From Heterotrichella gracilis (taxonomy: Eukaryota; Sar; Xanthophyceae; Tribonematales; Xanthonemataceae): DNA of 64,000 nt. The position numbers and the translations under genes are program-made. The notes under the pieces are model-generated. The model ran no database searches. It was not told where the DNA came from and saw only the letters and a program-made list of their open reading frames with translations. The stretch covers positions 1 to 64,000 of the forward strand of contig JAULBX010021631.1 in the NCBI GenBank assembly GCA_032358255.1, read 5' to 3'. Positions within the stretch are counted from its first letter, which is position 1. Every line of letters begins with the position of its first letter. Of the stretch, positions 5,941 through 62,399 are shown one piece after another.

Positions 5941-7396
5941 GCGGCGACAGCTCCCGCCGCACCACCCGCGTGCGCAAGGTGAGCCAGCGCATGGCGGTGG
6001 TGGATGACGCGGAGCGAGACGCTGCTGCTGCTGCGCGGCTGGATGCCTACGAGGACGACGCGGCGCAGGGGGATGTCTTTGGGGAGGACAGCGACGACGA
6101 GTTCCTGGCTGAGGAGGAGGAAGAAGGTGGGTGGGGGGAGGGTGCGGGGGGGAGGGGAGGAGGGGAGGGTGAGAAGTAGGGTAGCATGTGGGGGGCGCGG
6201 TGGTGGTGGTGTTACGGACAGGGTGATGCTGTGCTGCGGCGCTGCTGGATACCTATGAAGTATATGCGGCGCAGGGGGCCGCGTTTGGTAAGGACTGTGA
6301 AGGCGAGTTTCTGGCTGAGGATGGAGGAGGGATGGTGGGAGGGCGCGGCCTTGCAGCTTAAGAGTTGCATGGCCTGTCAAAGATTAAGATTAAGCAGATG
6401 TCCCGCCGTTTGTGGCATGGATGGCCACTTGTCACCTGATGCATCACCTGAACCTTGCCGCAGTCCCCCCTGCCCTGGCCTGTGCAACAGAGGGGTCGCA
6501 GGGTGTGGATGCAGTGGCGGGGGCCGCGGCTGTGAAGTTGCTGGAGGGCGGCAAGCGCCACCTGTCACATGGCGCCACCTGTCATTTAATTCCACCCCTT
6601 GGCCGCAGCTGTTGAGATGGTGAACATCGGCAAGCGCCAATGTCACATGATGCAACATTGAATACGACCCCACTTTTCTATATCGCCACCTGTCACCAAA
6701 TCAACCCCTTGGCCGCAGCTGTTGAGATGGTGAACAGCGGCAAGCGGCGCAAGGTGGCAAAGGCTGGGGCCAAGCGCAGGACGCGGGGCAGGGCGGAGCG
6801 CAGGGGCACCAAGAGCTTTGTGCAGCTGGTGGAGGAGGTAAGGGGGGGGGTGGGAGGACATAGGGTTTAGGGTTTAGGGTGCACAGACGCAGGGGGAGCA
6901 GGAGCTGTGTGCAGCTGATGGAGGAGGTAATGTGTGGGGGACTCCGGGGGGCACATAGGGCTTTGGGGGAGGGCACAGCGTTGACCTGGGCACTGGACTT
7001 TTGGGGGTGATGGGGTGGCAAGGTTTGAGGCTGTAGTGTGTTTTTGCAGCGGATGCCAAACATACACCCGCGTAGTCCCTGCTGTTAACCTGTGTTTCAA
7101 CCATGAACATGGATGCCTGTGCCCAGAATCGTTGTCACTCTGGCACCCTCCCCACAAACCCTCCCAACGCACTCCCTAACCCCTACCCGCAGAACGAGCT
7201 GGAGCGCCTCCCCCCCCACATACCCACCTACCTCACGGCGGCGGTGGGGCCCGCCAAGGTCAGCGCGCCACGCAAGTTCTGCTCTGTGTGCGGCAACGCA
7301 TCGGGCTACACCTGCGTGCGATGCGGGTCCCGGTACTGTGGACTGAGGTGCTACGGAGTGCACACGGATACGCGCTGCCTCAAGTTCATGGCGTGA
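5941..7396 (+). CDS. SWC6: SWR1-complex zinc-finger HIT protein (5' exon missing)
   Basis: Orthologue of plant SWC6/SEF and animal ZNHIT1, the HIT zinc-finger subunit of the SWR1/SRCAP remodeller that loads histone H2A.Z. Exons found: 5941-6126, 6719-6837 and 7193-7396, in phase and ending at TGA. The first part has the basic RRTTRVRKVSQRM stretch matching plant RRVSNRTRKVATKM, then an acidic DSDDEF segment. The middle exon is basic and ends SFVQLVEE. The last exon has NELERLPPHIPTYLTAAVGP followed by the HIT zinc finger, with CSVC, CVRC, YCGLRC and HTDTRC ligand groups, and ends KFMA as in plants. A short upstream exon with the start codon is needed (phase 1) but could not be identified between 5400 and 5940. 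Introns contain decayed copies of exons 2 and 3 (listed separately). Confidence 0.9.
6231..6336 (+). repeat. Decayed copy of SWC6 exon 2 in its own intron
   Basis: This intronic stretch aligns with the end of SWC6 exon 2 (about 6025-6126), including the Gly-Asp-rich acidic coding part and the donor, with many substitutions. It lies about 100 bases downstream of the real exon. Confidence 0.8.
6520..6639 (+). repeat. Two decayed copies of SWC6 exon 3 start
   Basis: Copies at about 6520-6562 and 6577-6639 match the acceptor and first 40 bases of exon 3 (6690-6757), including the ccgcagctgttgagatggtg core in the second. The second also copies the intron just before the acceptor (accccttggccgcag). 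A further partial copy of the exon 3 end with its donor lies at about 6885-6932. Confidence 0.85.
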
Positions 7397-8738
7397 GGGC
7401 GGGGGGTGGCTGTGGGCGTGGGGAGCATGCCGCTTGATTTTGGGTTTTGGGTTGCGGGGGTAGGGAGGGCGCCGCAGGGTTTTGGGTTGTGTGTTGTAGG
7501 GGTCGGGGAGGATATTGCAGGGGTTTTGATGAGCTGAGGTGCAAGACATGGGACGTGGTGGGGGTCAATTGAAGCCTAGGATTTTATGGAGGGCCCTCAA
7601 GCAGTGACCGAGTGGCTTGCCTTTTTCCCCGTTGCCTTTTGCCGATGTACTGGGGCGCCTTTTGCCTGCAGGTCTTAAGCCTGCTTTGATTTTCTGCATT
7701 TGCTTTTTGCTTGTGCCATATTGAGGTTTTTTCCAGTGCGCAGGAGGATATGTGCAGGGTCAGTTCAGTAGGGTTTAGAGTTTAGGATACTGGAATGTGC
7801 ATTGCAATGTTGCACTGCGCCCAGCAAGGTGCACCTGCATGGTGTGCAAGCTGTAGAAATGAAGTAATTGCTACGGTCGTTTCTACAGGTAGAAAGGAGC
7901 GCACAGTGCAATGCCATGCGGGGTGGAATATCGAGCTCGGAATTTTAGGCTGATGCTCTCACGGTGATGCAGGGGGGTCAGGTACCTGGCATACGCAGGT
8001 AAATGTCTGTTTAGGGTTTAGGGTTTGTTCACATTCCCCTCTCACAGGGCTGCAGTTGCTTTGCAGCCGCAAGCCAATGTCAGCATTGACATCAGGAAGC
8101 AATTTGCCGAGGTGTATCCTGCTGTCAGGGAGTTCAGGGCCGGTAACCAGGACAGGCTGTCATGGCATTGCACAGGGACCAGTGGCACTCGACCCAAACG
8201 TGGGCACCTGTGTACATGTGTGGCAACGTGTGTGGCAACCACTGCCAGCGCAGTGTCAGAGTCACACCAGAGTGCACTTGGCAAGTTTGCCTGCAGGAAA
8301 GCAGAAGTGCAACGCCATTGCATGGCGCCACGGCATTGGCCATGGCGAAAGGGCATCAGTAAAGTGCCACAAGAGTGACGTGCCACAAATGGGGTTGGCA
8401 AACCCATGCAATTTTGCCCTCCACTGTTGGTGCAGGCTCTCCATACAGACACACTAAAGATTGATCTTGATGGCACGGGGCCACGTGCACCGTCACAGCA
8501 CGTGGGTCCATCGGGGTGCACCTCAACAAGCGGCAAACAAAGAAAGCAGGCCACCTATCACCCAAAACGCACATAACACACGCTTTACAACCAAACGCAT
8601 TATTTAAAGGAGTAGCCTGTGCTTTCTTGTCTGTGGCGCGTACCCTGTAGCCCACCCTCGTGCGCTTTATGCATGCATGCATGCATATGACGCAGATGCA
8701 TACCCCCGGACCCAGCTGGGGCCTATAGGTAGCCCACC
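7397..8738 (+). other. Spacer between SWC6 and TPR gene
   Basis: Contains the SWC6 3' UTR and probably the TPR-gene promoter. Telomere-like heptamers occur near 7770 and 8010. A 110-base open stretch after a possible acceptor at 8047 is not convincing as an exon. A (TGCA)n run is at 8670-8687. No other gene is supported. Confidence 0.5.
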
Positions 8739-11700
8739 ATGTACCTCGTGTTGGCGGCGCTGGTGCTGGCGGCGGTCCCCGCCATAGTGAGCCTCACAGC
8801 CAGCCTGCTCCGCCAGCGCAGCCCCCCGCCCATAGGTCCCCAGGTACACATGTGACGTACCCTCACCACCCATACCCTACGCACCCATACCCTTTGCTGT
8901 GATATTTTAACTGCATGCATATCTCAGAGCCTAAAACCTAGAACCTAGAACCCCGGTGGTGTCAGGTGCCAGTTGCTGTTTCTGAAGCACTATGGGATCA
9001 CTCTGCGTGCGACTGGGGTATGGAAAGGCAGGAGGTAGGTTGTAGGGCGGGGAATTGGAGCTCCCTTGTGGTAGAGGGTGTCTCTATCCAAAGCGGACCC
9101 ACCATGCACCAGTGCTGCATATGCGGGGTTTGTCGCGCCGGGAATGGAGCCTCGCCCCGAGGATTGTTTGGCACAATGCCACAGCTCACTAACTCTTGTT
9201 CAAAACCGCTCTGCTGAGTTCACTTGTGCATGCGTTAACCACCTCCCCGACCCAAGCCTAACCCCCCAAAAACCCTAAACGCCCGCCACGTATACCCTAG
9301 GGCGTTTTGGTGCCAGAATCTTGGTCACACTTGCGGTCCAGCACTGTTCTAAAACCTAGACCCTAAACGTAAGCCCAAACGCTCGGCCACGTGCGTCAGT
9401 CCTGGGTTGACAATACGCATGCTGGACAAGGATGGCGGTGATGCCAAATTGACTCAGCAATTGCTAATATTAAAAGGTTTAGGGTATAGAGTTTCCTAGG
9501 GTACATCGGGGGCTCAAGGGGTTGACGATATGCATGCAGGACCAAGATGGCGCCAAGCTGACGTCGGTGATCAAGGTGAACATCAGGCGAGGGGCGGGGC
9601 CAAGGGCAAGGTGAGCTTAGGGTATAGGGTTTCCTTCATAGGGTTTAGGGTATAGGAATGTGACGTCCGTGATCAAAATGAACATCAGGCGATGGGCGGG
9701 GCCAAGGGCAAGGTGAGGATGAGGGTCAAGGTTGAGGGTTGAGGGTTGGAGTTTAGGGTGGTGGTTTCCATCCTGCTCATCCCATGCGATGGCGCAGCCC
9801 AATGGGTTGACCCCCAGCACACGCACTGCATGGCATGGGTCAGGGTTTCTGGTTGCAAGTGGCTTGCGCCAGGTCATTGTGGTGCAGTGCACCATAACCA
9901 TAGCTCTCAACAGCACACAACGCTACCACCAATGGATGCATGGATGCAAAGCAGCCCTTCCGTTTTCCAGCAAACTATGGCAAACCACTCCGTGGTGTTA
10001 GGGTTTCTGCATGGTTGGTCAATTACACCTGACCACGCGTTAATGGAAGATGTGCAGACACCACAGTGCGCAATGGCAATGCATCAATAGTACTACATCG
10101 AATCCACACCACCACGCCTTACCATAAACTCCCAACCCCTTTTTTTTACCCTCACACCCACCGCCACCGTCACCCCCACCCCTCTCCCCCCACAGGCTGC
10201 GCCCAGCGGTGGTGGGTGGGGCCATTGCCCTCGCAATCACCATCATTCTCCTGCTGGCTGTGGTGGTGCCACATGGCAGGCAGTCGAGCCTGCTGCGGCT
10301 CATGGGGGGGTCCAAGGCGTTCCATTTCAGTGATTGTCGCCCCCTGGGGGCGGCGGAGAGGTTGGGGTTTTATGATCTGGGGGGGTTCCACATGGCGGTG
10401 GTGACTTCGGTGCCTGAGGCGCAAAAGCTGTTTGACCAGGTGGGTATAATAACTTTTTTATAATTACATGTGTATAGAGGTTTGTAAAGCTGTGTGTGTG
10501 GTTAATTGCTGATTAGTGATTGTAGCTGGCAATTGTAACTGGTGATTGCGAGCTGGTGATGTACGGTAATGTGCGCATGCTCCATGCTCCAAGCCCTGTG
10601 CCCCAAAGCTGTTTGACCAGGTGGGGATGAGGAGGGTGATAGAGGGATTTGATGGGTTGTGAGGTTTCAGGCCATACCACGCCATGCCAGCCTGTCTGTT
10701 GCACAAACCCTAGGGTTTGATGGGCCCATGATGTCAAGCTTATGAAGCACCTACACAAATGCAAGGTGGTTTAACAGCTCATTGGCATATCCATCAACAC
10801 CAGCCACCCTAACCCCGCTGCAAGGTCCACCCCACCCCCTTCCTGCATGCCTGGCCACAGTTTACGATGAGGTAAATAATAAAATAATAATGAGGCATAA
10901 ACCTTTGAGAAAACCCCACACCTTACCTCCTCACTCCCCATCCCCCACCCATAACCCTCCACCCCACAGGGGCTCCTCCACGCGTACGACTTCAACCAAG
11001 TGGAGGCCCTCAACTCTTTCCAAGCAGCCCTGGATTACGACCCCTCCTGCGCAATGTGCCACTGGGGGGTGGCGTATGCGGTGGGGCCTTTTGTGAACAA
11101 AGTGGCCCAGGATGTGCCGGAGTGGTACCCGGTATTCAGCCCCGTGGATTTTGGGAGGGCGCATGAGGAGGCTGGGCTGGCTGCTGAGCTGGCGGCGGGT
11201 CAGGTGAAGGAGCACCCAAGCTCACAGGTAGGGTGTTGGGGTAGGTTGAAGGGTTTTCTGTAGGTTGAAGGGTTTTGGGGTAGGTTGCATGCCGAGAGTC
11301 CACAACACAAACTACCCATTGCTATGGTTGGTGATATTAAACGTACTCCATAGGAACTCGTGGTGGTGTGAGGGAGGCATCTAACAACCACGTAGATGCC
11401 GCCCTCACTTACCCCAAAGACCGCATTCGGACATCCTCAGCCACAAAGCTTCTGCCATAACCATACCCTACCTCAGATAGCTCCACACCCGTTGCATGAA
11501 AACTTTAATCTAGGGTTTCCCTTGACCCTACAGGTGGCAGCCAAGAACCTAGACTTTGCGCGGGCCATGGCCGCACGCTTTGCCAACGGGACGGAGGTGA
11601 AACCCGGTAGGGACGTTGCGGAGCATGCGTATGCTTCCACCATGGAGGCGCTGGGGAGCAAGTGGAAGGTAGGTGTGGGGTCGTGTTGTGTGCAAGGGTT

Positions 11701-14700
11701 TTGAGTGCAGTGTAGGTTTTATTTCCAATGGCACATCACAGGGTGTACAAGGGTCATTGTTAGTTTCAACTGAATTGCTGAAACCCATCTGGTTAAGGGT
11801 TTTGCAGACTGGCTGCTCCTGCTGTACCATCTCCCAATCCCACGGGGATGCACACACTGTCCACAAGCAAAAAACACAAACAATTGTTTTCCTGAATTTC
11901 TCAAATGGAAATAATTACCGGTATTTCCAATCCTGCAGGACGCGGACGCCTATGCGCTGGCCGCCGAATCCCACATGCTCTTCGTCGCCTGGGACTGCTA
12001 CAACGCCGACGGGTCCCAGAAACCCGGCGCCATCAAAGCAGAATCTCTAGCCCAAAAAGCCCTAGCCATCGCCCCCACCCACCCTCTGGCCCTCCACCTC
12101 ACTGTTCATGTGACCGAGGCAGCCGCCCCCGGGCGGTCCAAGGGGGGGAATGACAAGGTGCCGCGGGCGGGGAGGGGGGAGGGCGCTGCGGATGCGTTGA
12201 ATGCGCGCTTCGGCAGCTTTGGGCACCTGCTGCACATGCCGTCGCATTTGTTCATCAGGTGGGGGGTGGGGACATGGCATGGCGGGGATTTTGCCTGGAG
12301 GACTTAATAAATCACGATATATCATTGTCGTCTGATTTTGCAGGGACTGCAGTGAAATTACATTCCTGTGCTTCCATCTTTACACTTCAAGCTCGCTGTC
12401 TTAAGCATGTAGCGCGCCCTGCCCCCCCCCCCCTTCCCTCTCCACCAGACTCCCACCAACTGCCCACCCTCACCCCTCACTGCCCACCCCCCACCCACCC
12501 AGGTTTGGCTGGTGGGACCCCAAATCCTAAATCCTCATATCCTAATCCCTAATCCCTAATCCCTCAGGGTCGGCCGGTGGGACGACGCGGTCCAGACCAG
12601 CATCGCGTCCCACGCCTCCGACCTGCGCACCGCCCGCCGCTGCCTCATCTCCTATGATCCCGAGCACAACGTGAACATGCTGGTGTTTGCTGCTGCCATG
12701 GGGGGCCAGCGGGGCCTGGCGGAGCGCCACGCCAAGGAGATGCGCACATTTTTGGATGTGTTCACCCCCTCGGTGTTCCCCGGGAGGGAGTGGATCAACC
12801 TGCCCATGACATGGGTGGGGATGGGGGTGGGGGTGGGGTTTGGAAAAAGGGGGCCAGGGGAGGTTGTGGGCTTGGCTTGGGAAGTTTGGAGAGAGGGAGG
12901 GACGAGGTCCTTTGTAAAGTCACTGCATGCTGAACATGGGACAATGTACCTTGACAAGTGTATGTACACCTACAAAGCACGAGCTTTTGGGAGCTGTAAT
13001 TTCTAGCCTATAAAAACCCTTGCCAAAACCCTCATGTTGAGCCTGATCACCCATGCCAAAACCCTCGCCAATGAGCATGAAGATCGTTGTCAACTCTCTC
13101 AAATTTCGATGTAAATCCTTGCATCGCACCCTTACCGGCAGCATGGCGGGTTTCCTTATACTAGGGCTTCCCAGTAGTCTAGGTATCAGGTTTAGGAGTT
13201 CATGCAAGGGTTTCAGGGCCTTCCCTTGTGCGCAGGTGCGGTTTGCCGAGTGGGACAAGATCCTGACCTCCCTCAAGCCGCCCACCAATGAGTCCCGGGG
13301 ATACATCCCTGTAGGGGGGCCACAGTTTAGCCAGGTGGGGAGGGAAACCCTGCGCATGTGGGGGCGGTGCGGGGATATGATGAACGCATGCGCTTTGATT
13401 CTGTCTAGGCCCTGTGGGATGCTGGGGCAGTGAGCGCACACGTGAGCTTTGGTCCAGTCTTTGCTAAGCATGTTGCATACTTCCATGATGTTGACATATG
13501 CGGGGCCAGCCCCACTCAGTTCCGGCGCTGGTGTTCTACATTCCACATCTTACGTCCTCCACCCTCCCCACCTCCCAATCACCACCACCATAACCACCAC
13601 CACTACGCCCGTGCCCTGGCCTGAACCCTGAACCCTAAACCCTACACCCTCCTTCCCAGGTGCTGTACCACTATGCCCGCGCCCTGGCCTAAACCCTAGT
13701 CCCTAAACCCTCCTCCCTCAGGTGCTGTACCACACCACTCTCACCCTGGCCTAAACCCTACATCCTAAACCCTACATCCTAAACCCTACATTTTCTCTCC
13801 AGGTGCTGTACCACTATGCGCGAGCCCTGGCCTATGCCGCCAAGCGCGACGCGGCTGCTGGTCAGGGCCAGGCGAAACAGGCCCACCGGCTGCTTGACCA
13901 CATGCAGAAGGAGGTGGGGGCGCTCAAGGTGAGGGGAAGACCCTAAGGACCCTAACGTGGGGTTTTGGTGAACCAACAAACCCTAAATTTTAGATCATCA
14001 CATGCAGCAGGAGGTGGGGGGGCTCGATGTGAGGCCAAGACCCTAAAGACCCTCCAAAAAACCCTTAACCATTCCATCGTCACTCGTATTTGTTTTCTAG
14101 CGGTGGATGACCCTAGGTTGGGGTTTGGTGGGTTTGAGGCAAAACCCAGTTCACAGCCTTATGCAGATCTTTGCACAAACTCCAATGCATAACATTACGG
14201 ATATCCCTGCACAAGGCTTTGCAAATCCCTCTACAAAACCCTATTCCGCAGGCAGCGGAGGTGCATGTGCCAGAAGATGAGAAGACCTACCCTGGGGGGG
14301 GCATTGGGATATATTCAGGGGGGTACAAGGCCATGGCTGCAGTGCTCCAAGCAATAGCTGGCGCCAGGCTGAGGGTATCGCTGGGGAAGCTGCAGGTAGG
14401 GGTTAGGCTTTGGGATGCACTTTGGGGGTGTAGATTGTTGCAAGGTATGCACCAGTAGCGTTCGTTGCATGGGGTTGGGTTGAGGGTTTAGGGTCTCTAT
14501 CATGGGTTGCGTGACGTGTACACAGTCAGTGCCACGCATCACCACTCAGCCATCATCACTGCCACCTACCACCGCCCACCCATCAGCTGCACTACCATTG
14601 GCCACACACCACTGTCACTTACTATTAGCTCTGGGTGCATCCTCACCCATTGCACAACCCATTACAGGAGGCCGTTGCTTTGCTCAAGACAGCCTCAGAC

Positions 14701-15190: not shown

Positions 15191-15234
15191 CGGGTGTGAT
15201 TGGATCATGGTTCCCAAGGGTGTGAGGACGGGCA

Positions 15235-15400
15235 TGTGCTGCTGGGATTGTTTGTCCCTGGAGGCCCACGGCAGAAAATAGGCTGGACGAACCCACCAGC
15301 GCTTCCTGCCTGCCTGGCAGCATGCATGCGGGTTCCTGGCTGGACTAACTGTGTCCCACTTTTTGTCAGCTGTCATAGCCCAATCGGAAGGGTGCTGGGT
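15235..15400 (+). repeat. Decayed copy of TPR terminal exon, past the stop
   Basis: Aligns to the last exon from about 15048 to beyond its stop codon: gctgctggg...ttgt, ccctggaggc, cagcgcttcctg, tggcagcatgca and ggctggact follow in the same order. It lies in the 3' UTR or spacer. Confidence 0.8.
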
Positions 15401-15462
15401 TGGCTGGAGGGTATTGGGTGATGTTGGGCAATGCAGTTCGCTCACGAGCGTTGCATCTTCAT

Positions 15463-29400: not shown

Positions 29401-29867
29401 TTATGTTATCACGTACACCAGTGACCATACGCCCTTCCAGCCGCCCAACAGCCTAGCTACAGACCCCGCTGTTGCAAACACGCGTCACAGACTGGGTGCT
29501 TACCCCCAGGCTCACCTCGTCAACCTTGACAGCAGCAGCACCACGATTGAGCAGCAGCAGCAGCAGCAGCAGCAGCTGGGAAAGTATACTTTGATTTCAC
29601 TATTTTTACCCTACAGAGTCTGGAAGGTGAGAAGGGGGTGCAATTCAGCGGCCTTCAACACACCACACCCACAGCCTCAACCACAGGCACAGCAACCACC
29701 CAGCAAACCCAACCCCGACAACATCAACCAACCCCAGCCAGCAGCAAAGACAGCGAAGCCTGCTCAACCTCCTAATCACACCACCCACCCACACTACCCC
29801 TAGCGCTACCATGCTCAGCAGACCCCATCCCTCCCCCTCTTAGCAACACCCCCTGGATTACACACCA
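26401..29867. other. Long spacer between divergent genes
   Basis: Separates the root-cap gene (minus) from the receptor-like kinase gene (plus) and should hold both promoters. No gene is convincingly supported. Direct repeats tcacatgcagccca and cgtaccatg occur near 27050-27115, a GGTTCGAGCTCC B-box-like string near 28391, and single CCCTAAA arrays near 27988-28005. A plus-strand ORF at 29213-29803 (196 aa) with a glutamine tract has no recognisable domain, and its reading frame differs from the kinase gene. Confidence 0.5.
29549..29575 (+). repeat. CAG trinucleotide repeat
   Basis: Nine consecutive CAG units, preceded by a short interrupted one near 29530. In the overlapping ORF they encode glutamine, but coding status is unproven. 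Confidence 0.9.
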
Positions 29868-49600: not shown

Positions 49601-52600
49601 TCCAATTGCATGCTGTGCCTTGCCATTGTTGAGTGGCACATGCACGCCAGTGCATGGCATGCTGGGTTGCCACGCATGCCAACATATGCCTTCTTGGGCT
49701 ATGCGCGTGCGTGCCTGGCCAAACCTTGCCATGTGCTGCGTTTGCATTATATGCTGCATTTACTGTCTGTGACTAGCCAATCCCAAACCAAATCCTCCTT
49801 GCCGCCCTGAGCAAGCAGGGCATGCAGTGGCTTGGGCTTGTCCTCTCCGGTACCTCTAATGCCACCCGTAGAAACACCCGGACAGAAGCCAAATTCAATC
49901 TAAGCAACTGGTCATGGAGGGGATGTAAGTGGGTTGCCCGCTTCCCACAACTCTGACTGAACCCTAACAAGACCCTGACCAAAGCCCTGATCAAATCCGT
50001 CACCAAACCCTACACCCGCCCTACCTTCCCTCTCCCAGGGGAAGAAGGCATCCAGTGGGTGGCCCTGGCCCGCTCCCTCAACCTGTCTGGCAAGCGCTCC
50101 CTCAAGCCCCTGCGCGAGCTCATGAAGGCATTCGACATCAGCGAGGCCAAGGAGGTGGTGGGCAAGTCGGTGGCCAAGAGGCTCAAGGCGGGGGAGGGGC
50201 TGCGGGTGGGGAGGGGGCTGGCGCCGGAGTACGACGGGCCGGCGGGGGCGGCGGTGGTGGTCGGGGAGGGAGGTGAGGATTCGGTGGGGATTTGGAAAGG
50301 GTATGCGCGTGCGTGATTGGCATGCCATGGGCGTGATAGGGGACAGGTTCGTACCAACATTATTTTTGAATCTGTGAATAAATGTAGGCACAGAGGGGTG
50401 CCATTCAGTGGTGTGGTGATCATTGTTATTGGCCATTATGGCCCTACCATCGTACATGATCACTGGTGCCTACCACACACCAACATGCGTATTTCTTACC
50501 ATATTTTCCACACGCAGGCACGCTCGCCCTCCCCGCCCCCGCCGCCCCCCTGGCCCTGCCCGCGCCCCCCGTCCCCCCACCCCCCACCGGCGCCCTGGTC
50601 CCCTTCCAGCCCCCCGACGCGCTCCAAGCCAAGCTTCAGAACTTCCCCACCCGCTCCCAGCGCAGGCTGCGTGCACTGGTGGGGGAGCTGGAGCGCAGGG
50701 GATACGTGCTGTGGAGGGAGTGCCCCGCGGTGTTCATGGTGAGGGTGGGGGGTGAGGAGGGGGTAGGTGCTGTGGAGGGAATGCCCCGCGGTGTTCATGG
50801 GGAGGGTAGGGGGTTTAGGGTTTAGGGTTTAGGGGGGCTGGACAGGCGGGGCTACATGCTGTAGAGGGAGTTCTTCGCGGTGTTCATGGTGAGGGGTGCG
50901 TGGCTGAGGGTACCAAGTACTCGAGTGCAAGAAAGAAACGTCTGCCATATCACTTGGAGTCCAGCCAAGAAGAGAGTTAGCAACGAGAATACACGCACAC
51001 ACACCACTTGTGAGGACGCCGATGCTCACACACAACAGTACACCACCACCACCATTTACATCCCCCACCATCCCCCACCCGCAGGAGGCCGACGCGCACG
51101 AGTTTGCCGGCATCGCCCCTGACAACAAGGTGGTGCAGCGCCTGCTTGAGATAGGCGAGGAGCTGCAGCTGCTGGCCAGGCACACCATCGCCCTACCTGC
51201 CAAGAGCAACTGCAGCGACATGCGCTCGGTGGTGGTGCTGCTGCCGCACGGGGGGGTGCTCACGGACGAGATGGTGGTGGAGGTGGGTGGGCGGGGGGGT
51301 GGGTGAGGTGGGGGTGGGGTGCTCAGTGTTCAATGGATCGACAAGACAGCCATTTCATCTAGGCATTGTTTTGTTGAAAAGATCACACATGCCAACTGCG
51401 CTGCATGACGGACGGGCAAAATTTGGTCACTAAGGGCGAGAGCTATGCCTCCCCTCACCATCCACCTCTCCCCCACCCACGCAGGTCACCGCCCACATCC
51501 TCACCACCAGCCGCAACAGGATAGTCTCAGGCATGCACGCGGCGCGCTCCGCCCTTCCCCTACAGCCCCACCTGCGGGTGCCGCGTCTCCCCCCATCAGG
51601 CCCCCCACCGCCGGCGCCGGATGGGGGCGGGGGTGGGGGGCGCGTGCGGTCGCAGGCCACCCGGCCCCGTGGCAAGAGCCTGAGTGCTGCCACTGCTGAG
51701 AATGGGTTTGTGGGCGCTAGGATGATCCGTGCCAGGCTCATGCACACGCTGGTGTGCAGGCTTGTGGGTGCGTGCGGGTGGTGGTGGTGATGGTGTGTGT
51801 GGGATGTGGGGCTGTTCCTTGAGCGCCAGGACCCCTGCATGTGGTTGTTAGCTGCCAGAATGATTTATGCATGGCCTGCACCCATGTATTATGGTACTTA
51901 AGATGCAATGCGATGACTGCCACCTAATGCACCTTTGTAATCAAACACTCCCACGATGAATTGTTTTAAGTTGTAGTTTTCTCAATTGTTTGTTATTTTC
52001 ATGTTGATTTTATTATCATTCCTAATATTATTCCTATGCTTGGCTACTACTATCCCCACCCCACCCCTCACCCTCCAGGCCTTGCCGGCTTTTCCCCCAT
52101 CCAACCCGAGACCACCACCGCTGGCTTCCTGCCGGTGTTCCCATCAGCACCCACACCCTCAGCCGCGCGGCCAATGGCCACAGCCACAGGCCAAACCTTC
52201 AGCCTGGCCGTGCGCGCAACCAGGCAGAAGCACGCGGTGAGGCACAGGGATCGATCGCATGCCTCGATCACATGGTTGATGTCTTGTCTGATGCCGAGTG
52301 CACCCTCTAATGGAAGCCTTGGCAACAGCACAGCAATTTTAGGTTGTTCCACCCTAAACCCTGACTGCACAAGCGCACAACACAATAACCACACCCACAC
52401 ACCTGATCACACGGCCAGACAAACCGCCACAACCGGTGCATGAACCAACCCTTGCACCCACCATCCACCCATCACCACCCCTCCCCCTCCCCCCGCAGGC
52501 GCCCACCGCCCCTGCTCCCGCCCCCGACTCCCCCAGCGCCCCCCCCACCTACCTGTTCAACCCACGCATGCTGTGGGACTGCATGCCGGTTGACCTGTAC

Positions 52601-55600
52601 CTGCAAGCCATAGGCGCATCCATGCACTACGAGGGGCTCAAGGAGCTGTGCGCGCAGGGGAAATCCCTAGGTGAGGGTTTTGGGGTTAAGGGTACGCCAA
52701 TGGGCCTGTTGTAGGGGCTTGATGAGCTGTGCACACGGGAGAACCCTAGGCGAGGTCCCGGTATCAAGTGTAGGGTTTTGGGCTGACCTGTACCTGCAGG
52801 CCATATAGATGCGGCCATGCCATGTAGGGGCTTTGTTTGCTCCATTGGGGAAACCCTAGGTATGGGTTTCGGAGTAGGGTATGCTGGAGGAGGGTATAAT
52901 CAGGAGCTTTTCTGACATGATCTCCCCTTTCTGCAGGCGAGGTCTCACCTGACGAGCAGTCCATGTTTGTTGATGGCCTTGCCAAGCAGCGCCTGTCCAC
53001 GCTCCTTGACCTGCTGAGGAGGATGGGGCTGCTGGACGCAATTGTGTCAGTGGCACAGGGTATGGAGAAACCCTAACATATACCCTAGTGGCCTGGAAAC
53101 ATCCTGTTTAGCGGCACCTTGAAGCTTAAGCGCCATGTTCCTCCAGCCATATGCTGCCTGCTGACGTGGCAAACTCTGCGCACCCTAACCCAGGGTTTCA
53201 TCCTGTCACTGATTTTCCAACCTGTCTGATTTGGCGCCCGTCCCAAGCCCTAAACCAGGAGCTCAGACAACCTTAAACCCTGTCCAAGGTTTTTCAACCC
53301 CCAAACCCTAACCCAGGGTTTTCTACCCCAGGCACCCTATCCCTCTCCTCCTCGGAGCTGGCCTGGTTCGCAGCGCGCCCCCAGGCGGTGGTTGAGGAGC
53401 CGACACCTGGCGCCAAGGCGGGCAGCGGAGCACCCCCCCCACCCCCCACTGTGTCCCTGTTTGATCTGCGCCAGGAGGAAGGGCTGGATGACTACTGGGC
53501 CAAGGTGGAGTGGGTGGCCAACAAGCAGAGGGAGGAGGCCGCGGGGGGGACAGCGGCTGGTGGGTTGTGCTTCCCAACCAACGTGGCGCCAGAGGTGGGT
53601 GGGTGGGGGGTGGTTTTCTTTAGGGTTGTTTCACTGCAAGCGTGCACTGTCATGTCCTCCTGACCTGCCGCAGAGCCCTAATCCATACCCTAAACTTTGC
53701 CCCAGATGCCGCCAGCCGCATGCTGCCCCACAATTTGAACAAAAAAACCAACACAAAAGGTGTGCAACCCCGCTCGCATCCCTGGTAAACAAAACCGCCG
53801 CCGCCACCACCACCACAACCGCATCAGGCCCGTGTCCCAGCTCCCCTCAAACCCTTTAATTCAAACCCTAACCGCACTCCAAACCCTAACCATTTCTATT
53901 TCCATTCCTCCCCAGATCCTTGTGCGCGGCGCGTGGACCGCCAGTCGCATGATGCCCGTGGCTCAGCTGTTGTCCCTGCAGGAGCGGCTGCATGAGGCGG
54001 GGCCCGATTTGTCGTTCGACGTGTGCAAGCAGGTGGCCAAGGAGATGGGCATACCGCACAACCAGGTGGGTGGGTGGAGCGGTGGGGTGGGTGGGTGGAG
54101 AGGGGTGGGGGAGGGCCAGTCCCGGGGGTGGACACCCCTGCATAAAACCATCCACATGCAGAATAGGGAAAACTCGCTGCAGAGCCCCAACCCCCGCAAT
54201 TGCTCCCGTAAAGCATGCGCAAACCACCTGCCTTATCATACTGCAAACTTGGAGGAATTGCCCATATTTTGGTCTGTTTGCCCCCCAGGTGCTGAAGCTG
54301 TCGCATGAGATGAACCGCAAGACGCGACTGGGGCGGCTGGCGCCCCGCCGCACACCCGCCGCACCTGCGCCCCCGCCTGCCAGGCGAGCGGGGGGGCGGG
54401 AGGGGAAGGAGCGCCCCCAGACCAGGGAGCAGAAGGCAGGGAGGAAGCAGGTGGAGCTGAGGAGGGGAAGGGGTGGGGGGTTGTGGATCTGGTGTATGGT
54501 GGAAGGGGCGTGTGTGGTATTGAGGGACGTGTGTGGTGGTGATACGATTAACCACGCCAATCTACATCCAAGGGCATGGCTTGCGCTATGAACACCACAG
54601 CATGCGCAAATGGCAAACCCCTGCACGTAATACCGCCTCCCCTCCCCACAGCCCGCCACGCGCCCTACTGCCCCAGTCGCATCCACCCCCACCCCCGCCG
54701 CCGCCACTGCCGACGCCGCGCCCCCTTCGTCCCCCGCCGTACACCACACAAATGCTGTTGAGGAGCACAAGCGCGTGATTGCTGCAGCGGTTGAGGCCAG
54801 GGCTGCGGCTGTGGCCCGTAGGAGGGACACCCACCGCGCACTCATTGAGCAGCAGCAGCGCATCAGGTGGGGTGCTGGGTGGCTGGATAGGAATGCGGGG
54901 TTTGAGTCAGCATAAGGTGTGAGTGTGACCTCATGCCACCCACCGCATGATGGTAGAACAGGAGCGGTGCAGGAGGTGGAAGGGCGCGCGGAGCGGGCCA
55001 TGTCAACAATTTAACCCACACCTCAAATTAAGCGGATTGGACAAAGGCTTTAGTTCATTTGCGTACGTTTCCAACCCTAAACCCTCTCCACTGCTTTCCC
55101 CAAACCCCATCTCCCTCTCCCATGCCTCCAGGTTTGAGGCTAAGCGGCGCAAGCTTGAGGCAGACCAAGCCGCACAGCTGGAGAAGGAGGCGGCCAAGTC
55201 TAGCAAGAGGGTCAACAAGGTGGGTGGGGGTGGTGGGTTTGGTGGCGGCGGTGGTGGTGGTGACATGTGGCATGCAAGCTTATGTGATATGGTGGTGCTG
55301 GGTGGGTGGGTGGGTGTGTGAGGAGGCAGCATGTGCAGCCATTATAAAACTTGCGACCACCATACCTACACATCACACGTGACCCTGCGCCGGGTATCCA
55401 ATCCCCACACCCACACCCCACCTCACCCCCACAGTCTCTCCCCCTCCAGAATAGCCGCACCGCCTCCCGCGCCGCAGCTGCCGCCGCCACCCGAGCCAGC
55501 CACGAGGCTGCTGTGCGTGAGAGGATGGTTGAGCTGGACATACAGCCAGCCACACACAGGCCAGACTTCAGGTGGGGGGTGGGGGGTGGGGTGGGTGGGG

Positions 55601-58600
55601 CACGGGTGATGAGATGAAATATTGGGTGGAATACATTGTATCGGTGGAGTGATGTGCGGAATTGTACGACAGTGGTGTAGGGTGTAGGGTTTGGTAGCTG
55701 AGAGTAATCTAGCAGCGAGTGGTGTAGGGTTTAGGGCTCGTGGTTTGGGGTTTGAGCTGCAAGTCGCTAGCCTAGGTGCATTGCTGGGATGCAACCCATG
55801 TACTTAACCCTTCACTCAGTGCTCAATCACTGGAATCTATATAGCAACCCCGTCCCATGCCCCTGCAGTGACTCTGATGGCGACAGCGAGGGCGATGACC
55901 ACGAGGGCTTTGTGAGCGACGGGGATGGTCCCGCTCCGCAGCCCGCGCGCCGCCCCCCCTTCTCCTACTCCAAGATGATGGGCTGGACCCTGGGCGAGGA
56001 CAGGCTGCTCATGGAGAGCTACTTCAGGTGGGGTGGTGGTGGTGGTGGTGGTGGTGGTGGCGGTGGTGGTGGTGGTGGTGGTGGTGGTGGTGGTGGTCGC
56101 GTGTCATGTCTTTCTACGGTCTCCGAAATGACTGTGGTGTAGAAACTGACTGAACAGGATCGACGGACTGGCTGACGATCAGCCAGTCAAGCATGTTCTT
56201 TTGCCACCACGGTAGGGTTCCACCTCAGGGTTCCACCCCTGGTGGCCCATCGCGCACACCATCCAGGCACCCTTTATGCACCTCTGGTCATGACTGCAAT
56301 CGGCATACAGAGTGACCTCTTCTCACTCTGGTCATATCCATGAACCTACACACACACGCACACACACACACACACCACCACCTCCCACAAGTCCCCATTT
56401 CTACAGGTGGCGCAGCACCCACGGCCCCAAGGCAGCGCTCCCCTGGGACCTGCTACGCATGGCGCACATTCGCAGCAGGCAGGCCAAGCGCAGGGTGGTC
56501 AACCTGAGGGGCAATGTCAGGACGGGGCCGGGGCTCAGGTACGAGAGAGGGGATGGATTCAAGGTGTATGGGGGAGAGGGAGTGTGCAGGGGGGCGGTTG
56601 CTGGGGGCTGACTGGTGTGTTGCGTTGGGTTTAGGGTTTAGGGTTTAGGGTTTAGGGTTTAGGGTACCATGGCCATGGGGTTGCTGGGGGCTGACTGATG
56701 TGTTGCGTTGGTACAGCCATGGGGTTGAACAACTGGAGCTGTACCTGTTTCAAATACAAATGGAATCCCCCGATACATGTCGCTGGCCAGTGAGCAGTGA
56801 GGTGTCTGTGTGCACACGCCTTCTGTGGCGCTGACACCTGGCAGTGCACTGGCCACACACACATTTGGCCTCTGTGTGGCTGCCTGACCCTAAACCCTAA
56901 AAACCCTAAACCCTAAACCCATGCGTGCGCAGGGCCCTGGAGGACATTGCCGACGCAATCTTCCAGCTGAGGAGGGAACAGGAGAAGGCAAACGGTGCGC
57001 AAAACCCTGGCCAAAACCCTAGCAAAGCCTCAGGCAAAACCCTAAGAAGTTCCTGGCCAGCACTGTGCTGAACAGGGTGGTGGGGTGTTCCTGGTTCCAT
57101 GCAGGGTTTGTGGTGCGTCATCCTAAGGTCATGGCCATCTGGCTGTGCTTGCTGGAATGTAACTGCCATGTATCAACCTAACTACCCTAGAGTAACCACG
57201 GTCATCGCCACCTTGACCACCTTGCGTAGCAGTAGGGTTTGCCTAGAGTTTTGTCTGGTTTGGCTGGTGGGACGCATATAGCTGACTGAGTCTGCGTTGC
57301 ACCACTACCTCGTGAGTCCCGGTGAGGTTGTGCTTAGGGTTTGTGTGGTGCGCCCGCAGCCAAGCCGCGCAAGCGCCGCAGGGCGGCGCCACCTAGCGAG
57401 GGGGAGCAGCAGGCAGCGGAGGAGCAGGGTCAGGCACAGGCACAGGGGGGGGACGACGCAGCAGGTGCGTACGTAGGAGGGGGGACAACAGGGGGAGTCC
57501 CTTGCTGTGGTTGTCTTTATAACATTGTATCAATGCTACCGGGTAAATTGCCCATCCCGCTCTTTGCGATGATGCACTCCCAACCCCCTGAATTCTCCCC
57601 TTGGAAACGCTCCCCGTCCCCAACCCCACACTACATTCCTCCCCTTGTGACATAAACCATAATAACTATGAATGATGGTGATCTCCCCATGTGTTCCACC
57701 ACCACCACCCACCTCTCCTCGTCAGACCCCATCCCTCACCCTGCAGGCCCCCAGGCACTGACAGCTGGCGAAGTTGAGCAGCGAGTGCATGAGCTAATGG
57801 GGGGGGTGGAGGGGCTGCTGGAGGGGATACTGGCGGCTGCACCCCGGCGTGTGGCGCAGCACAAGCCGCTGCGTGTTGGCAAGGGGGGCAAGGCAGGGGA
57901 GGCAATGCCCATCGTGCTGGTGGGGGATCAGGTGGGTGTGGTGAGGTCGGGTGAAGGGTGGGAAGGCTAAATTTGCCAGTGCGTTGTTTCGGGGGTGCGG
58001 GGGTCATGTGCTGCGCTGGCCACCATGCATCACATCCATGCCAGCTCTTGAAGCCTTAAATTTGGAAGTGGGGTCAGCCTGGTCCAGCAGCATTTATGCA
58101 ACCTTGTTTTTTTTATGTTTTTTCATAAATTTTTTGTGAGCTATGGGCAACAGAGCTGAGAAAACGCAGCACGTACTCATGCACTCTTTGCCCATATGCC
58201 CCCTTTCTCACATATACCCCTTCTCCCCTGCTGCGCCCACTTTCACCTGGCTCTGTTTCGGGTTCTCACGCCATTTCATCCCCTTCTCACACCCACGCAC
58301 ACTCTCCCCCTGTAGGCATTGGAGCCCCTCCTGAGCCAGCGCGAGGTTGCCGCCGCCCGCATGCAGCGCCGCCCCCTGCTGGACCAGCTGCGCAGGCTGG
58401 CGGGGGTAAGGCGGGGAAGGGGGGAGCTGCCGGAGGGGGAGGGGGTCAAGGTGGGTGCATCCCTCTGGGGGAACGTGTGCAGTTGTAATTGTTAATATTA
58501 AGGAATTAAACATTTAAGCGTTTAAACCGTTGAGGATTCAAGGTGGATGGCACCCATGTGCTGATTGCCCACCCCCACATCCCGCCTGCCTGGCCATGGT

Positions 58601-61600
58601 GTGCTGTGTCGCTGACGTACACACAAGTCCCTGCTGCTGCTATCAGATGCCCTGGGGCCCTAAGTACAAGAGGCACCGCCAGGCGCTGGTGGATCTCTTC
58701 ACACCCAACGAAAGCCTTGTCAAACCCTACTAAACCTATTCAGAGTCCCTCCCCATTCCCCCCCAGGTCCCCGTTGCCCTGGCCATGGAGCTGCTCAAGT
58801 CCCTGCTGCTGCTGTCAGACACCATAGGGGAGGCTCCTCCAGGCGCGGCAGCGGCCCTGGTTGCGCGCTTCCCCCCCGCCACCATACAGGCTGCGTTCGC
58901 AACCCTGCGGCGCATGGGGGCGGTGTGCGCGGCCAACTCGCGCAGGCCCTTCCACCTGTCGGATGCTTTCAGGGCGGGGCTGGTGAGTGGGCGTTGTGTT
59001 GGGGGGGAATATGGGGTTGAGGGGGAGGGAGGGGGGCGGAATGGCCTGGAATGGTTGCATGCTAGCTTGGATATAGCTTTTATAGCTCGCAGAGTGAAAG
59101 ACATCTGATGTATTTCATATCATACGTAGTATGGATGTATCTTGGTCTGTGAAAATATCCTTGTACGAGGCTGGGCATTCACGATGGTGGAGGAGGGCAG
59201 TGGAGTTCTTAGTTGTTGCCACAGATATGATCCGACTCTTCCCGCTTGTTTCGTGCACAGGTGTTCACCGCTGACCCACCACACTGTTTACTGCAGCGAT
59301 GATCCACCCCTTTACACACTCCCTTGCTGATGCAGAGTGTGAACCCCTGGCCAAGCACGCTGTTTTCAGAAGCAGCCTCCACGCGCCGCCACCTGGCACA
59401 CCTGCTGGACTTGAAAGGGGGGGAGCCAATGGAGGTGGAGGGGGGGGAGGAGGCACCCATTCGGCTGACCACTGTACCGGGTGAGTGTTAGGGTCTAGGG
59501 TTTGTGTGGATGTTGGGGAGGGGGGAGGGGATTTGCTGGGCGGTGACCTGCCACTGTGGTCGGAATTGGTACCTGCTATACAGATACTATGGCGCAAATC
59601 TGGGCCCACATGAGCAGCCAAATTCAGTGTCACAACCTGCATAGGTACGAAATCCATACAGATTTCACAGCAGTGTCATTACCTGCATAGTTACATTATG
59701 CGTAAAACCTCGTTGCAATCCACTGTGCATTGTCATGCCACCAAAGCCATCCCTCACCACCAATATTGCCTCCCCGTTCCAGGCCCCGATGGCGATCCCC
59801 TCCCCTGCGCCCTCATCTCCCCCCCTGACCCCCTGCCAGCTGGCGCCCTGGCACAGCTGCTGACCCTGGTGGGTGTGGGGGGGGTGCGCCTGGCTGTGCA
59901 CGACCTCAAGGTGGAGGAGGTGGGGGGAAGGGGGGGTGCGGAGGGGGCTGAGGACATCCGCCAGCTGGCAAAGCTGACGTGGCAGGTAGGGGGTTGGTGG
60001 TGGGAAGAAGGAAACCCTATAGGGTTGGGGCATGGTTTGAGGGTGGTGATGCAGTCCAGCAGTGTGCAGCTGCATGGTGAATTGCAATATATGCAAGGGT
60101 TTTGAGGTGATACAAGCCGGGCAGCGCGGTGTCGGTGTGTGCGAAGTGTGTTGGCGGGAAAGCAGCTCTTTGGAGGTCAGGCCTCTGCCTTGAATCCCTT
60201 CAGAATCGTTGCATACGCCTTCGGTGCGGTTGCTGAAAATCCCTTCACTCGTATGACGCCTTTCTCTGGTGGACAGAACACCTTTATGCCTTGAAGGCCG
60301 CCCTGTGGGCACAGCTGGCCACAGCTGGCACATCCCTATGCTCAACATCCCTCCCCTCCCATTTTTTCAACACACACCACTTGCTTACCCTCTCCTGTGC
60401 CCTCCCAGGCGTCTGTGGTGGTAACACCTGCCACGCCGCCACCTGGCGCACTGACTGAGGCCAACGATCACATGGCTACTGATCATGATCACATGGCAAC
60501 TAATCGCATGGCCACCGATCACATGGCCACGGATCACGTGGCTCAGCCGACGACACCTGGCGGCCCGCTGGCCTACCACACAGCGGAGGTGCTGCGGGAG
60601 GTGGAGGGGGCTGAGGGAGGGGGGGTCGAGGGGGTGACACGTGGCGCGCCACCGGCGGAGGTGGCGGGGGTGCTGGCGAGGGGCATTGCGGCGCACACCC
60701 TAGGGTTGACAGCACAGCAGGTGGAGGGAGCGGTGCAGCAGGCGCTCAGGTGCGCAGCGCAACCCTTACAAAAACCCTGGCGCAAAGGTTGGGAATACCT
60801 TCTGCTGTATCCAAGCCCATCTGTGACAGCCCTTTGCTGCACCATCCCAACCCATGCCCCGCTGTCTGCCTAATGGCGGGGCCAGCCACCTTTTCCGAGT
60901 GGTGGTGGTCTCCCAAATTGTGCAGTACAAACCCCTTTGCTGATGTGGCACAGGATGGCATCGGAGGCAGGGGAGGAGGGGATCACACCCGCCCAGCTGG
61001 CACTGGCGCTGGCGCCAACGCTGCAACCAAGCAGAGCGCCGGACAACCCCCCGCCCACCCCCGAAATGCACGCATTTTCCACCTCCCTGCTGGCGCATTT
61101 GGCCACCTCGGGGCTCCTGGTGCGGGTGTGCGGGTTCGACGCCGCCGCCTATTTCACCCCCCCGCATTGCGCGAAATGGATGGCGGGCTATGGCACCCTC
61201 GATGCAGGGCCAGGGGGCGAGGATGAGGTGGTTCGCCCCTGGCTGGACCACAAGGGGGGGCTGAATACCCCCATGTGGGGAGGGCTGGTGGGCAAAGTGG
61301 TGGCACTGGTGGCGCGCAGCCCAGGTGCGGTGGGTGGGGTTTGGGATCACATTGGTGGGAAACCCTGCACTTACAAACCCTGTAAGCAATGTCAGGGTGT
61401 GGGGTTTCAATATACTTTCCATGCCGTATCCTGCACCCTCTACAATCAAGTGGTGACTGCCAACCTTGCTTAGGGCTGTTTCCCAAGTCTCAGGTGGCCT
61501 TTTGCCACGTGGCCCCTCTGCCCACATGCATATCTCCGGCACTGCCCGCGTTCCTTGGTCTTGTTCGTGTGGTGTCTGGTGTGAAGGTTTCCTCCTCATT

Positions 61601-62399
61601 GCCTGTCACTTGCCGGACCGGCTGGCGCCCCTAGGGCCTGCGCCGCTGGGACCTGCGGCTGAAAGGCAATGACAAGGGAACATTCGCTCCAGACACCACC
61701 AGAAACGAGATGAAAGACCGTGGGTAGTGGGTGGTGGAGATGGGGATGTGGGCAGAGGGGCCACATGGCAAAGACCCATGAACCAAAGTAGTTACAAATT
61801 TGGCGTACTCCAACCAAGTGCATCCTTGGTTCCGTACAAACAAACAAACAAACAAACAAAAGGCTTGGTTCCGTACTGCGCGTTTATGAGCAAACTTACA
61901 AGCAAACTGCCCACAAGCGCAAGCGAACCATCATGCATGACACACCCCCTGCTCCCATCCCTTATTCCACCACCATGAGAATCACCCCTGGTCTGCCGCT
62001 GCACCCACCACCACCACCACTTGTCTCCCCCTGCACCCACCATCCATGCCACTTCAAATATAACTTTAGAATTTGTTTCAATCTCGATTTCGATTTTCTA
62101 ATCCTGAATCGAGCGTTTACTTTACTTATGTATCCCACCTTCCCACCCCGCTTGCAGGCATCCCCGAGCCCTCCCTGGTTGACCAGCTGGGTGTGATTAA
62201 CCCATGCAGCGCAAGGGAGCTGCTGAGGAGGATGGTGGCGGGGGGCAGGCTGAGGGTCAAGAGGGTGGGGAGCGGGGCAGGGGTGGGGTCGCGGCCGCCG
62301 GCGCTGTTTGGGCGTGGTGGTGGCAGCGGCGGTGGTGGTGGTGTGGTGCGGGCCTACTTTGTGGATGTGGAGCAGTGTTTTGCTGGGCCGGCGGTGTGA
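46677..62399 (+). CDS. GTF3C1: TFIIIC B-block-binding large subunit
   Basis: Orthologue of human GTF3C1 and yeast TFC3 (tau138), which binds the B box of tRNA genes to recruit RNA polymerase III. Thirty-four in-phase exons give 1958 aa, near the plant length. Starts: 46677, 47169, 47395, 47636, 48079, 48453, 48866, 49279, 50039, 50518, 51085, 51485, 52079, 52499, 52937, 53332, 53916, 54289, 54652, 55132, 55450, 55869, 56407, 56933, 57360, 57747, 58316, 58647, 58767, 59336, 59783, 60409, 60954, 62158. The B-block winged helix is RRVLELIGRARAKGALQSDL to NHILVRD (about 154-215). Further plant-like landmarks are KMVRAKL-type GARMIRARLMHTLV, MPVDLYLQAIG, DDYWAKVEW, the SANT-like WTLGEDRLLMESYFRWRS, and KYKRHRQALVDLF followed by MELLKSLLLLSDT. 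The acidic, Gly- and Ala-rich linkers are variable. The exon at 58647-58718 has a weak donor (gtcaaa) but matches the plant protein. Many introns carry exon-edge copies. Confidence 0.93.
49040..49250 (+). repeat. Copies of TFIIIC exon 7 end and exon 8 start
   Basis: About 49048-49090 repeats the exon 7 end and intron start (tctggacaagctggcaggtg, gtggcaaatg). A shorter one is at 49117-49132 (gccctcatgcagcag). About 49193-49245 repeats the exon 8 start (cctacccgaccactcctggc). Confidence 0.9.
50763..50897 (+). repeat. Two copies of TFIIIC exon 10 end
   Basis: About 50763-50806 (gtgctgtggagggaatgccc) and 50832-50895 (ggcggggctacatgctgtag, gcggtgttcatggtgaggg) repeat the exon 10 end at 50680-50745. 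They are separated by TTTAGGG repeats at 50811-50833. Confidence 0.95.
52698..52868 (+). repeat. Copies of TFIIIC exon 14 parts
   Basis: About 52718-52765 repeats the exon 14 end (cttgatgagctgtgcacacg, then aaccctaggcgagg). About 52783-52866 is a worn copy of a longer part (gacctgtacctgcaggccat through gggaaaccctaggta). Confidence 0.85.
56029..56097 (+). repeat. GGT trinucleotide repeat in TFIIIC intron
   Basis: About 22 GGT units, broken once by GGC, begin directly after the donor of the exon ending at 56027. Confidence 0.95.
56629..56665 (+). repeat. Interstitial telomere array (TTTAGGG)5
   Basis: Five perfect TTTAGGG units inside a TFIIIC intron. The flanking unit gttgctgggggctgactg.tgtgttgcgttgg occurs on both sides (56597-56627 and 56681-56713), so the array sits between two copies of a direct repeat. 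Confidence 0.95.
58596..58650 (+). repeat. Copy of TFIIIC exon 29 interior forming an acceptor
   Basis: The string ctggccatgg... then aagtccctgctgctgctatcag resembles exon 29 (58779-58820, aagtccctgctgctgctgtcag). Its end is the acceptor of the small exon at 58647, so that splice site may derive from duplicated coding DNA. Confidence 0.7.
60460..60545 (+). repeat. Coding DHMAT pentapeptide repeat in TFIIIC
   Basis: A 15-base unit (gatcacatggccact) repeated about five times with changes inside the exon at 60409-60749. It encodes DHMAT-type units in a linker that is absent from the family in general. Confidence 0.85.
61490..61790. repeat. Long imperfect palindrome in last TFIIIC intron
   Basis: Two arms of about 145 bases, centred near 61640, are imperfect reverse complements. 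The outer arms share gtggcccctctgcccacat exactly (left 61518-61536; right on the minus strand near 61752-61772). The inner arms share cattgcct and other blocks. It could be a foldback MITE or a long-hairpin small-RNA precursor. No target-site duplication was identified. Confidence 0.8.
61836..61860 (+). repeat. CAAA tetranucleotide repeat
   Basis: About six CAAA units. A related string, cttggttccgtac, lies on both sides of it (61823 and 61863). Confidence 0.9.

Follow-up and report, generated by a model that had tools for sequence, protein, structure and literature searches.

Genes of the window and copies of their exon edges

The first 64,000 nucleotides of contig JAULBX010021631.1 from the alga Heterotrichella gracilis (GenBank assembly GCA_032358255.1; hereafter the window) are eukaryotic nuclear DNA that resembles a green-algal genome, with a GC content of about 57%, and introns of the genes located here contain decayed copies of the adjoining exon edges. 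Our own ab initio gene finder, a hidden Markov model trained on open stretches and followed by hand editing, yielded eight genes with 99 exons and 91 introns (median intron length 297 nt). In the course of editing, five pieces resembling exon copies or fragments and a 7-nt first exon were removed, and two exon ends were set manually. Six models are backed by Pfam, namely LHC, zf-HIT (HIT), TPR, kinase (KIN), Alfin/PHD and TFIIIC B-block (TF3C); LHC is a light-harvesting chlorophyll a/b protein according to Pfam, and in the PDB it matches chlorophyll a-b binding proteins, some of them algal. The exon chain of SPS is alignable to PDB entry 3apz, with no extra segment where the intron carries a copy. 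The FN3 gene is presumably FN3-like or pherophorin-like.

Alignment of the window with itself by BLAST returned 33 direct high-scoring segment pairs (HSPs), 25 of them within 500 bp, and 17 inverted HSPs, a single one of which was that close. No HSP was found in three dinucleotide shuffles. Thus, the proximity of copies to their source, as claimed in an initial annotation of this DNA, is borne out. Subtracting four HSPs in the coding repeat at 19740-20238 leaves 21 local direct HSPs; one of these is shared by the HIT1 acceptor and HIT2 donor edges, and KIN3 is represented by two. The array of 24-nt coding repeats in FN3 (19787-20213, PPPSPVLS-type) was kept out of the counts.

A further test compared each 80-nt exon edge to its own intron, with random intron stretches from other genes as null. 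At p≤0.01, 32 of 182 edges (donor 18/91, acceptor 14/91) matched their own intron; at p≤0.05, 22 donor and 20 acceptor edges did. Reverse-complement probes gave 0/91 donor and 2/91 acceptor matches at p≤0.01, and at p≤0.005 neither the next nor the previous intron was matched (0/83 each; 5 and 2 at p≤0.05). The copies therefore adjoin the parent exon in the same orientation, as had been noted before. About a quarter of the introns (25/91) are matched at p≤0.01, and they belong to the six genes HIT, TPR, FN3, KIN, SPS and TF3C, in agreement with the earlier number. No copy was found at this threshold in LHC (0/3 introns) or PHD (0/7 introns, six of them 73-98 nt long). The latter gene (43900-45275; first intron uncertain) is surrounded by genes whose introns measure about 300 nt, and two intron classes adjoin here.

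An iterative count gave 38 copies at 31 of the 182 edges, each scoring above all 300 null draws, where more than 30 had been estimated. Six edges have two to three copies each and six introns contain copies from both edges, which supports the repeated nature of the duplications. When probes were shifted along the 66 introns of at least 250 nt, donor-side shifts of −100, −60, −30, 0, +30, +60, +100 and +140 nt produced 1, 5, 8, 18, 17, 6, 6 and 6 matches, and acceptor-side shifts of −140, −100, −60, −30, 0, +30, +60 and +100 nt produced 10, 7, 9, 15, 13, 2, 0 and 3. Thus, the signal has its maximum at the splice site.

For structural analysis, 39 edges were aligned out of the 42 that reach p≤0.05; the remaining ones, the TF3C12 donor and the LHC1 and KIN1 acceptors, are weak, with scores of 14, 14 and 9. 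Seven alignments that were weak or explained by the other edge were discarded by eye (FN32 and TF3C6 donor; TPR9, TF3C8, TF3C14, TF3C16 and TF3C30 acceptor). The 32 copies kept and the 32 edges with p≤0.01 overlap in part: 28 are common, the TPR3 and FN39 donor and FN38 and TF3C28 acceptor copies were kept at p 0.015-0.035, and the FN32 donor and TF3C14, TF3C16 and TF3C30 acceptor copies were discarded despite p≤0.01. Analyses of structure, decay and motif distance rest on the 32 kept copies.

Structure and decay of the duplicated units

In the alignments, 30 of the 32 copies cross the splice site (donor 17/19, acceptor 13/13). Of 31 testable units, 20 also show an in-register duplication of the intron part at p≤0.05. 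In these, the intron stretch between the real junction and a copy resembles the stretch beyond the junction of that copy, as expected if exon edge and intron were duplicated together, head-to-tail. This supports the initial proposal that introns grow by tandem duplication across exon/intron junctions. The units have a median period of about 102 nt (range 61-208 nt), and copies lie 25 to 155 nt from the junction with a single exception at 5 nt. Tandem Repeats Finder (TRF), which is blind to exons, reported four arrays with periods above 40 nt (9559, 13599, 23136 and 50697), all four at modelled exon edges.

In TPR and KIN, a duplication crosses the stop codon and reaches 3′ flanking DNA (15037-15373 and 37340-37537, respectively), so that two of eight gene 3′ ends are affected. 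Hence, copies are not limited to introns as had been assumed, and the two cases show that the edge of a coding sequence (CDS) suffices and that such duplication also takes place away from splice sites. Copy-bearing introns are longer than others (median 350 vs 272 nt, p=5e-5), a comparison limited by the greater room for detection in long introns. Added up by hand, the 32 periods attribute about 3.8 of the 28.4 kb of intron sequence to recognised events; the description of introns as built from copies is thus shown for this part only. Junction overlaps among 17 BLAST units are restricted to KIN3 (5 nt) and KIN7 (7 nt). KIN15A has a 7-nt gap, and the other 14 units have gaps of at least 28 nt, at which microhomology cannot be called; HSPs at 6558, 13620, 30796 and 50682 were omitted from this inspection.

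In the 14 units with an intron part at p≤0.01, copy and parent differ at 76 of 591 exon positions (12.9%) and at about 209 of 842 intron positions (25%; both hand sums). This ratio of about 1:2 corresponds to the d versus 2d expected if only the exon parent is conserved. Given this ratio, there is no need to invoke wholesale gene conversion between copies and their exons, KIN3 remaining an outlier. Differences at codon positions 1, 2 and 3 amount to 13.9, 12.9 and 21.0%, and 14 of 32 copies contain a net frameshift. Thus, the copy decays as noncoding DNA, and most drift of the selected parent falls on third positions.

A GT or AG persists at the junction of many copies (uncounted), and one copy in KIN3 differs at a single one of 61 exon bases, as would be expected if the copies were functional alternative (mutually exclusive) exons under selection. 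The frameshifts and the extent of change at codon positions 1 and 2 argue against such a role, as do the one-sided nature of the copies, which are mere edges, and the SPS homologue 3apz, which has no counterpart; we consider this role highly improbable. Local direct repeats are also a known assembly problem. Here, divergence forms a series from 1/61 to 20/68, and the exon parts are 2-29% diverged and contain indels. Such graded ages are unlike false duplication, and an assembly or sequencing artefact is scarcely credible. Individual copies are listed in Table 1.

Table 1. Positions of exon-edge copies and of the intron-only duplication in the window
Gene	Copy	Parent exon	Position	Strand	Remarks
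HIT	donor edge	ending 6126	6225..6339	+	period ~208
HIT	acceptor edge	starting 6719	6591..6643	+	period ~110; intron part also duplicated, p 0.003
HIT	donor edge	ending 6837	6888..6930	+	
TPR	donor edge	9540-9610	9661..9717	+	period 102; also TRF array 9559-9747
TPR	donor edge	ending 10439	10595..10625	+	weaker, p 0.02
TPR	acceptor edge, copies	starting 13803	13599..13776	+	position of the TRF array that contains them
TPR	donor edge	ending 13928	13999..14034	+	
TPR	last-exon edge	15037-15188	15223..15373	+	across stop codon, in 3′ flank
FN3	donor edge	20560-21145	20452..20502	-	
FN3	donor edge	21745-21873	21662..21713	-	edge p 0.035; intron part p 0.003
FN3	acceptor edge	21745-21873	21989..22025	-	p 0.02
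FN3	acceptor edge	22535-22700	22778..22841	-	
FN3	donor edge	23277-23458	23190..23234	-	period 81
FN3	acceptor edge	24808-24991	25058..25094	-	
KIN	donor edge	30681-30819	30878..30942	+	1 mismatch/61 exon bases
KIN	donor edge, second copy	30681-30819	30994..31017	+	
KIN	donor edge, third copy	30681-30819	31085..31116	+	decayed
KIN	donor edge	ending 31453	31494..31528	+	
KIN	acceptor edge	starting 31761	31640..31695	+	
KIN	donor side	ending 32926	32952..33019	+	similarity ends before junction
KIN	acceptor edge	starting 33226	33128..33163	+	
KIN	acceptor edge	starting 35318	35212..35263	+	period 86
KIN	acceptor edge	starting 36661	36435..36507	+	period ~207
KIN	donor edge	ending 36809	36873..36924	+	
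KIN	acceptor edge	starting 37221	37114..37147	+	
KIN	last-exon edge	37340-37420	37457..37537	+	across stop codon
SPS	donor edge	ending 40519	40592..40702	+	period ~181
SPS	donor edge	ending 40937	40981..41042	+	telomere-like seam
SPS	donor edge	ending 41480	41559..41631	+	
SPS	donor side	ending 42120	42231..42271	+	similarity ends before junction
TFIIIC	donor edge	ending 48983	49035..49083	+	
TFIIIC	acceptor edge	starting 49279	49173..49251	+	
TFIIIC	donor edge	ending 50738	50745..50805	+	period 61
TFIIIC	donor edge, second copy	ending 50738	50832..50888	+	
TFIIIC	donor edge	ending 52670	52781..52861	+	
TFIIIC	acceptor edge	starting 58767	58572..58705	+	strongly decayed
TFIIIC	acceptor edge	starting 59336	59254..59307	+	strongly decayed, p 0.015
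	intron-only, 33 nt		56596..56711	+	56596-56628 and 56679-56711, 32/33 identical; TTTAGGG array in seam

Simple repeats of the window include a perfect (GTGTGG)12.8 array at its start (1-77) and a (GGT)24 microsatellite directly 3′ of a donor site (56027-56097).

Preference for coding edges and telomere-like seams

When HSPs were overlaid on the gene models, all 21 local duplications detected by BLAST contained a CDS edge. Such a bias could reflect pure survivorship, with duplications arising uniformly, those within the CDS being purged and those at edges being recognised more easily as their exon parent stays conserved. The d to 2d decay ratio and the neutral copies are as predicted by this explanation, and the affected gene 3′ ends as well as the existence of an intron-only event are in line with it. 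Simulation of uniform duplication under the same BLAST settings gave an edge fraction of 0.44-0.55, about half of the events being noncoding-only; matched to the age and size of the 21 edge events, 21.9 noncoding-only hits were expected, but none was observed. Consistent with this, a tile test in which hits had to exceed every one of 200 null scores by 3 or more gave hits for 30/184 exon-edge probes, 16/311 intron tiles and 2/193 intergenic tiles; without this margin, the numbers were 36, 23 and 8. By our reading, 14 of the 16 intron tiles can be assigned to edge-spanning units. Survivorship as the whole explanation is therefore unlikely. As edge duplications can leave the mRNA unchanged, selective survival accounts for part of the edge bias, not all of it.

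The median GC content of the units is 0.58 (20 units) as compared to 0.60-0.61 in edge windows. Noncoding windows with a GC content of at least 0.60 are scarce, and noncoding opportunities exceed those at edges by a factor of 1.47 with and 1.27 without GC weighting. Since the GC content of the units does not exceed that of edge windows, base composition as the sole driver is unsupported. We take the edge preference as real within the window, not as absolute.

The telomere-like heptamers TTTAGGG/CCCTAAA make up 5.3% of intron bases, about nine times the Markov expectation of 0.6% (for instance at 13599-13800 and 56627-56665). They are present in 21 of 26 copy-bearing introns vs 32 of 65 others (p=0.009), and their intron density is 0.076-0.093 within 50 nt of exons vs 0.033-0.046 deeper inside. 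Seam segments between copies are telomere-like to 0.161, distance-matched segments to 0.061 (13 seams, P=0.006); the motif is absent from six of 14 seams examined. The distance from the unit junction to the nearest such motif revealed a weak trend, with 14/32 within 20 nt vs 24% expected (p=0.02) and 10/32 within 10 nt vs 17% (p=0.05). Among single loci, sealing by telomeric sequence is suggested most clearly by the near-fresh intron-only duplication, which has a TTTAGGG array as its seam.

Near acceptors, CTAAA motifs could serve as branch points, and near donors, runs of GGG could act as splicing enhancers. As splicing signals thus provide a rival reason for the placement of the repeats, the telomere link remains a lead. 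A hot spot at the splice junction, where breaks tied to transcription or splicing would be end-joined with telomerase-added or captured telomere-like filler, could explain the signal maximum at the splice site, the repeat density next to exons, the enriched seams and the array in the near-fresh duplication. Seams devoid of the motif, splicing signals that would likewise sit near edges, and the stop-codon and intron-only cases, in which no splice site is involved, make such a hot spot doubtful. The seam enrichment hints at break repair. Insertion of telomeric repeats at repaired breaks is described in PMC2246262, with duplication at 4.6% of rodent and 16% of primate loci, and, according to PMC8355091, staggered breaks with 3′ overhangs give rise to small tandem duplications through CST-Pol alpha fill-in.

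Probable intron growth by duplication of exon edges

It is very probable, in our view, that introns of the window were lengthened by small tandem duplications across junctions with neutral decay of the spare copy. A tandem duplication of about 60-210 bp across an exon/intron junction would leave both copies with a splice site. If the spliceosome uses the site adjoining the coding exon, the mature mRNA would be unchanged, the spare exon edge would be trapped in the intron, and the intron would be longer by one period and its copy free to decay neutrally. Use of the exon-adjacent sites would explain both the tolerance of such events and the position of the copy on the noncoding side. Staggered breaks arising preferentially at coding edges may be the source, the duplications then being their repair scars; the edge preference itself is shown within the window.

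Several observations weigh against this interpretation. The intron part is without detectable duplication in 11 of 31 units, some of which have fairly similar exon parts (SPS6, KIN15 donor), and filler or loss has to be invoked for these. Moreover, the in-register test is anchored at splice sites, whose common signals add slight similarity. The intron-only duplication is clear and was missed by BLAST at E 0.01. Probes from intron interiors gave 39 hits, 29 in introns with an accepted unit and 10, mostly marginal, elsewhere. The estimate of the edge bias presumes independent events and a simple mutation model. In KIN3, an almost intact exon part is joined to an intron part of 73% identity, which is too uneven for simple decay. 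Furthermore, the gene models are ab initio with exon-like pieces removed by hand, homologue comparison at a copy site covers SPS only, and everything was read from one 64-kb window as a single sequence, without relatives or RNA. As regards the array in KIN intron 3 (30757-31116), the first copy may have had its exon part renewed by a subsequent conversion or re-duplication.

In the initial annotation, this mode of intron expansion was not known to have been described on such a scale, but exon stuttering on the dot chromosomes of chicken, the closest published match found, was reported in 2026 (Hron et al., PMC12954441). There, the intron next to an exon contains local imperfect tandem copies of the lateral exon part, splice donor or acceptor included. 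The copied exon part has a median length of 36 bp (range 20-187 bp), the coding exons remain intact, and the authors tie the phenomenon to GC-rich genes. Expansions comprise 1-44 copies (median 4), exon copies occur in 3.4% of dot-chromosome introns, and intron lengths are polymorphic. Intron-only repeats occur there too, in numbers that the authors expect to be far greater. The mechanism is left open by them, and other vertebrate genomes except gerbils are stated to be negative (data not shown).

The copies described here resemble exon stuttering in that edges containing the splice site lie in the adjacent intron and not in neighbouring ones, and in their imperfect tandem structure, which is in register in most testable units. 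In contrast to chicken, there is mostly one and at most three old copies per edge. Intron-only repeats are rare, with none among the 21 local HSPs and one clear and a few marginal cases by sensitive probes. Copies affect 25 of 91 introns, seams are telomere-like, and the genome is green-alga-like. The geometry matches that in chicken; low copy number, rare intron-only repeats and the host set the present case apart. A literature search found no algal report of exon-edge copying, and the accessible text of the Haematococcus genome paper (PMC7617258) contains nothing comparable.

Intron gain by tandem duplication according to the Rogers model is related as well. In the potato RdRp case, as given in excerpts of PMC4974935, the duplication crosses an intron-exon boundary and splice signals are inherited, both of which apply here. 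The Rogers model creates a new intron, whereas in the window existing introns lengthen and the coding join is unchanged where tested (SPS). A new intron bounded by two exon copies was rejected: the copies lie inside the intron, 20 of 31 with their own downstream intron part. Introners and transposons were rejected as well, as dispersed copies were looked for and not found in neighbouring introns of the window (0/166 at p≤0.005); eight of the 33 direct HSPs, spaced by more than 500 bp, are unclassified. The CST-Pol alpha duplications are likewise short and head-to-tail, but they stem from experimental breaks in mammalian cells, and the portion of PMC8355091 at hand reports no link to exon edges. 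Interstitial telomeric sequences share telomeric repeats at repair seams; in the corresponding portion of PMC2246262 they are without exon-edge association, and the repeats found here are short and mostly degenerate.

Going one step further, coding-exon edges might be break-prone in this lineage, with staggered breaks being filled in and often sealed by telomere-like filler, each leaving a tandem duplication that spans the junction. Repair at splice junctions might then be a main driver of directional intron growth that needs no transposons and that arose separately from exon stuttering in birds. We advance this tentatively, as possible rather than probable.

The copies bear on how introns lengthen without transposons. 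Single events are legible here with their size and relative age, because a conserved exon parent and a decaying copy form a built-in clock. The excess at coding edges is a specific and testable claim on the location of breaks or duplications. Exon-edge copying in a second, distant lineage would make the chicken case a general mode of intron growth rather than an oddity of dot chromosomes.

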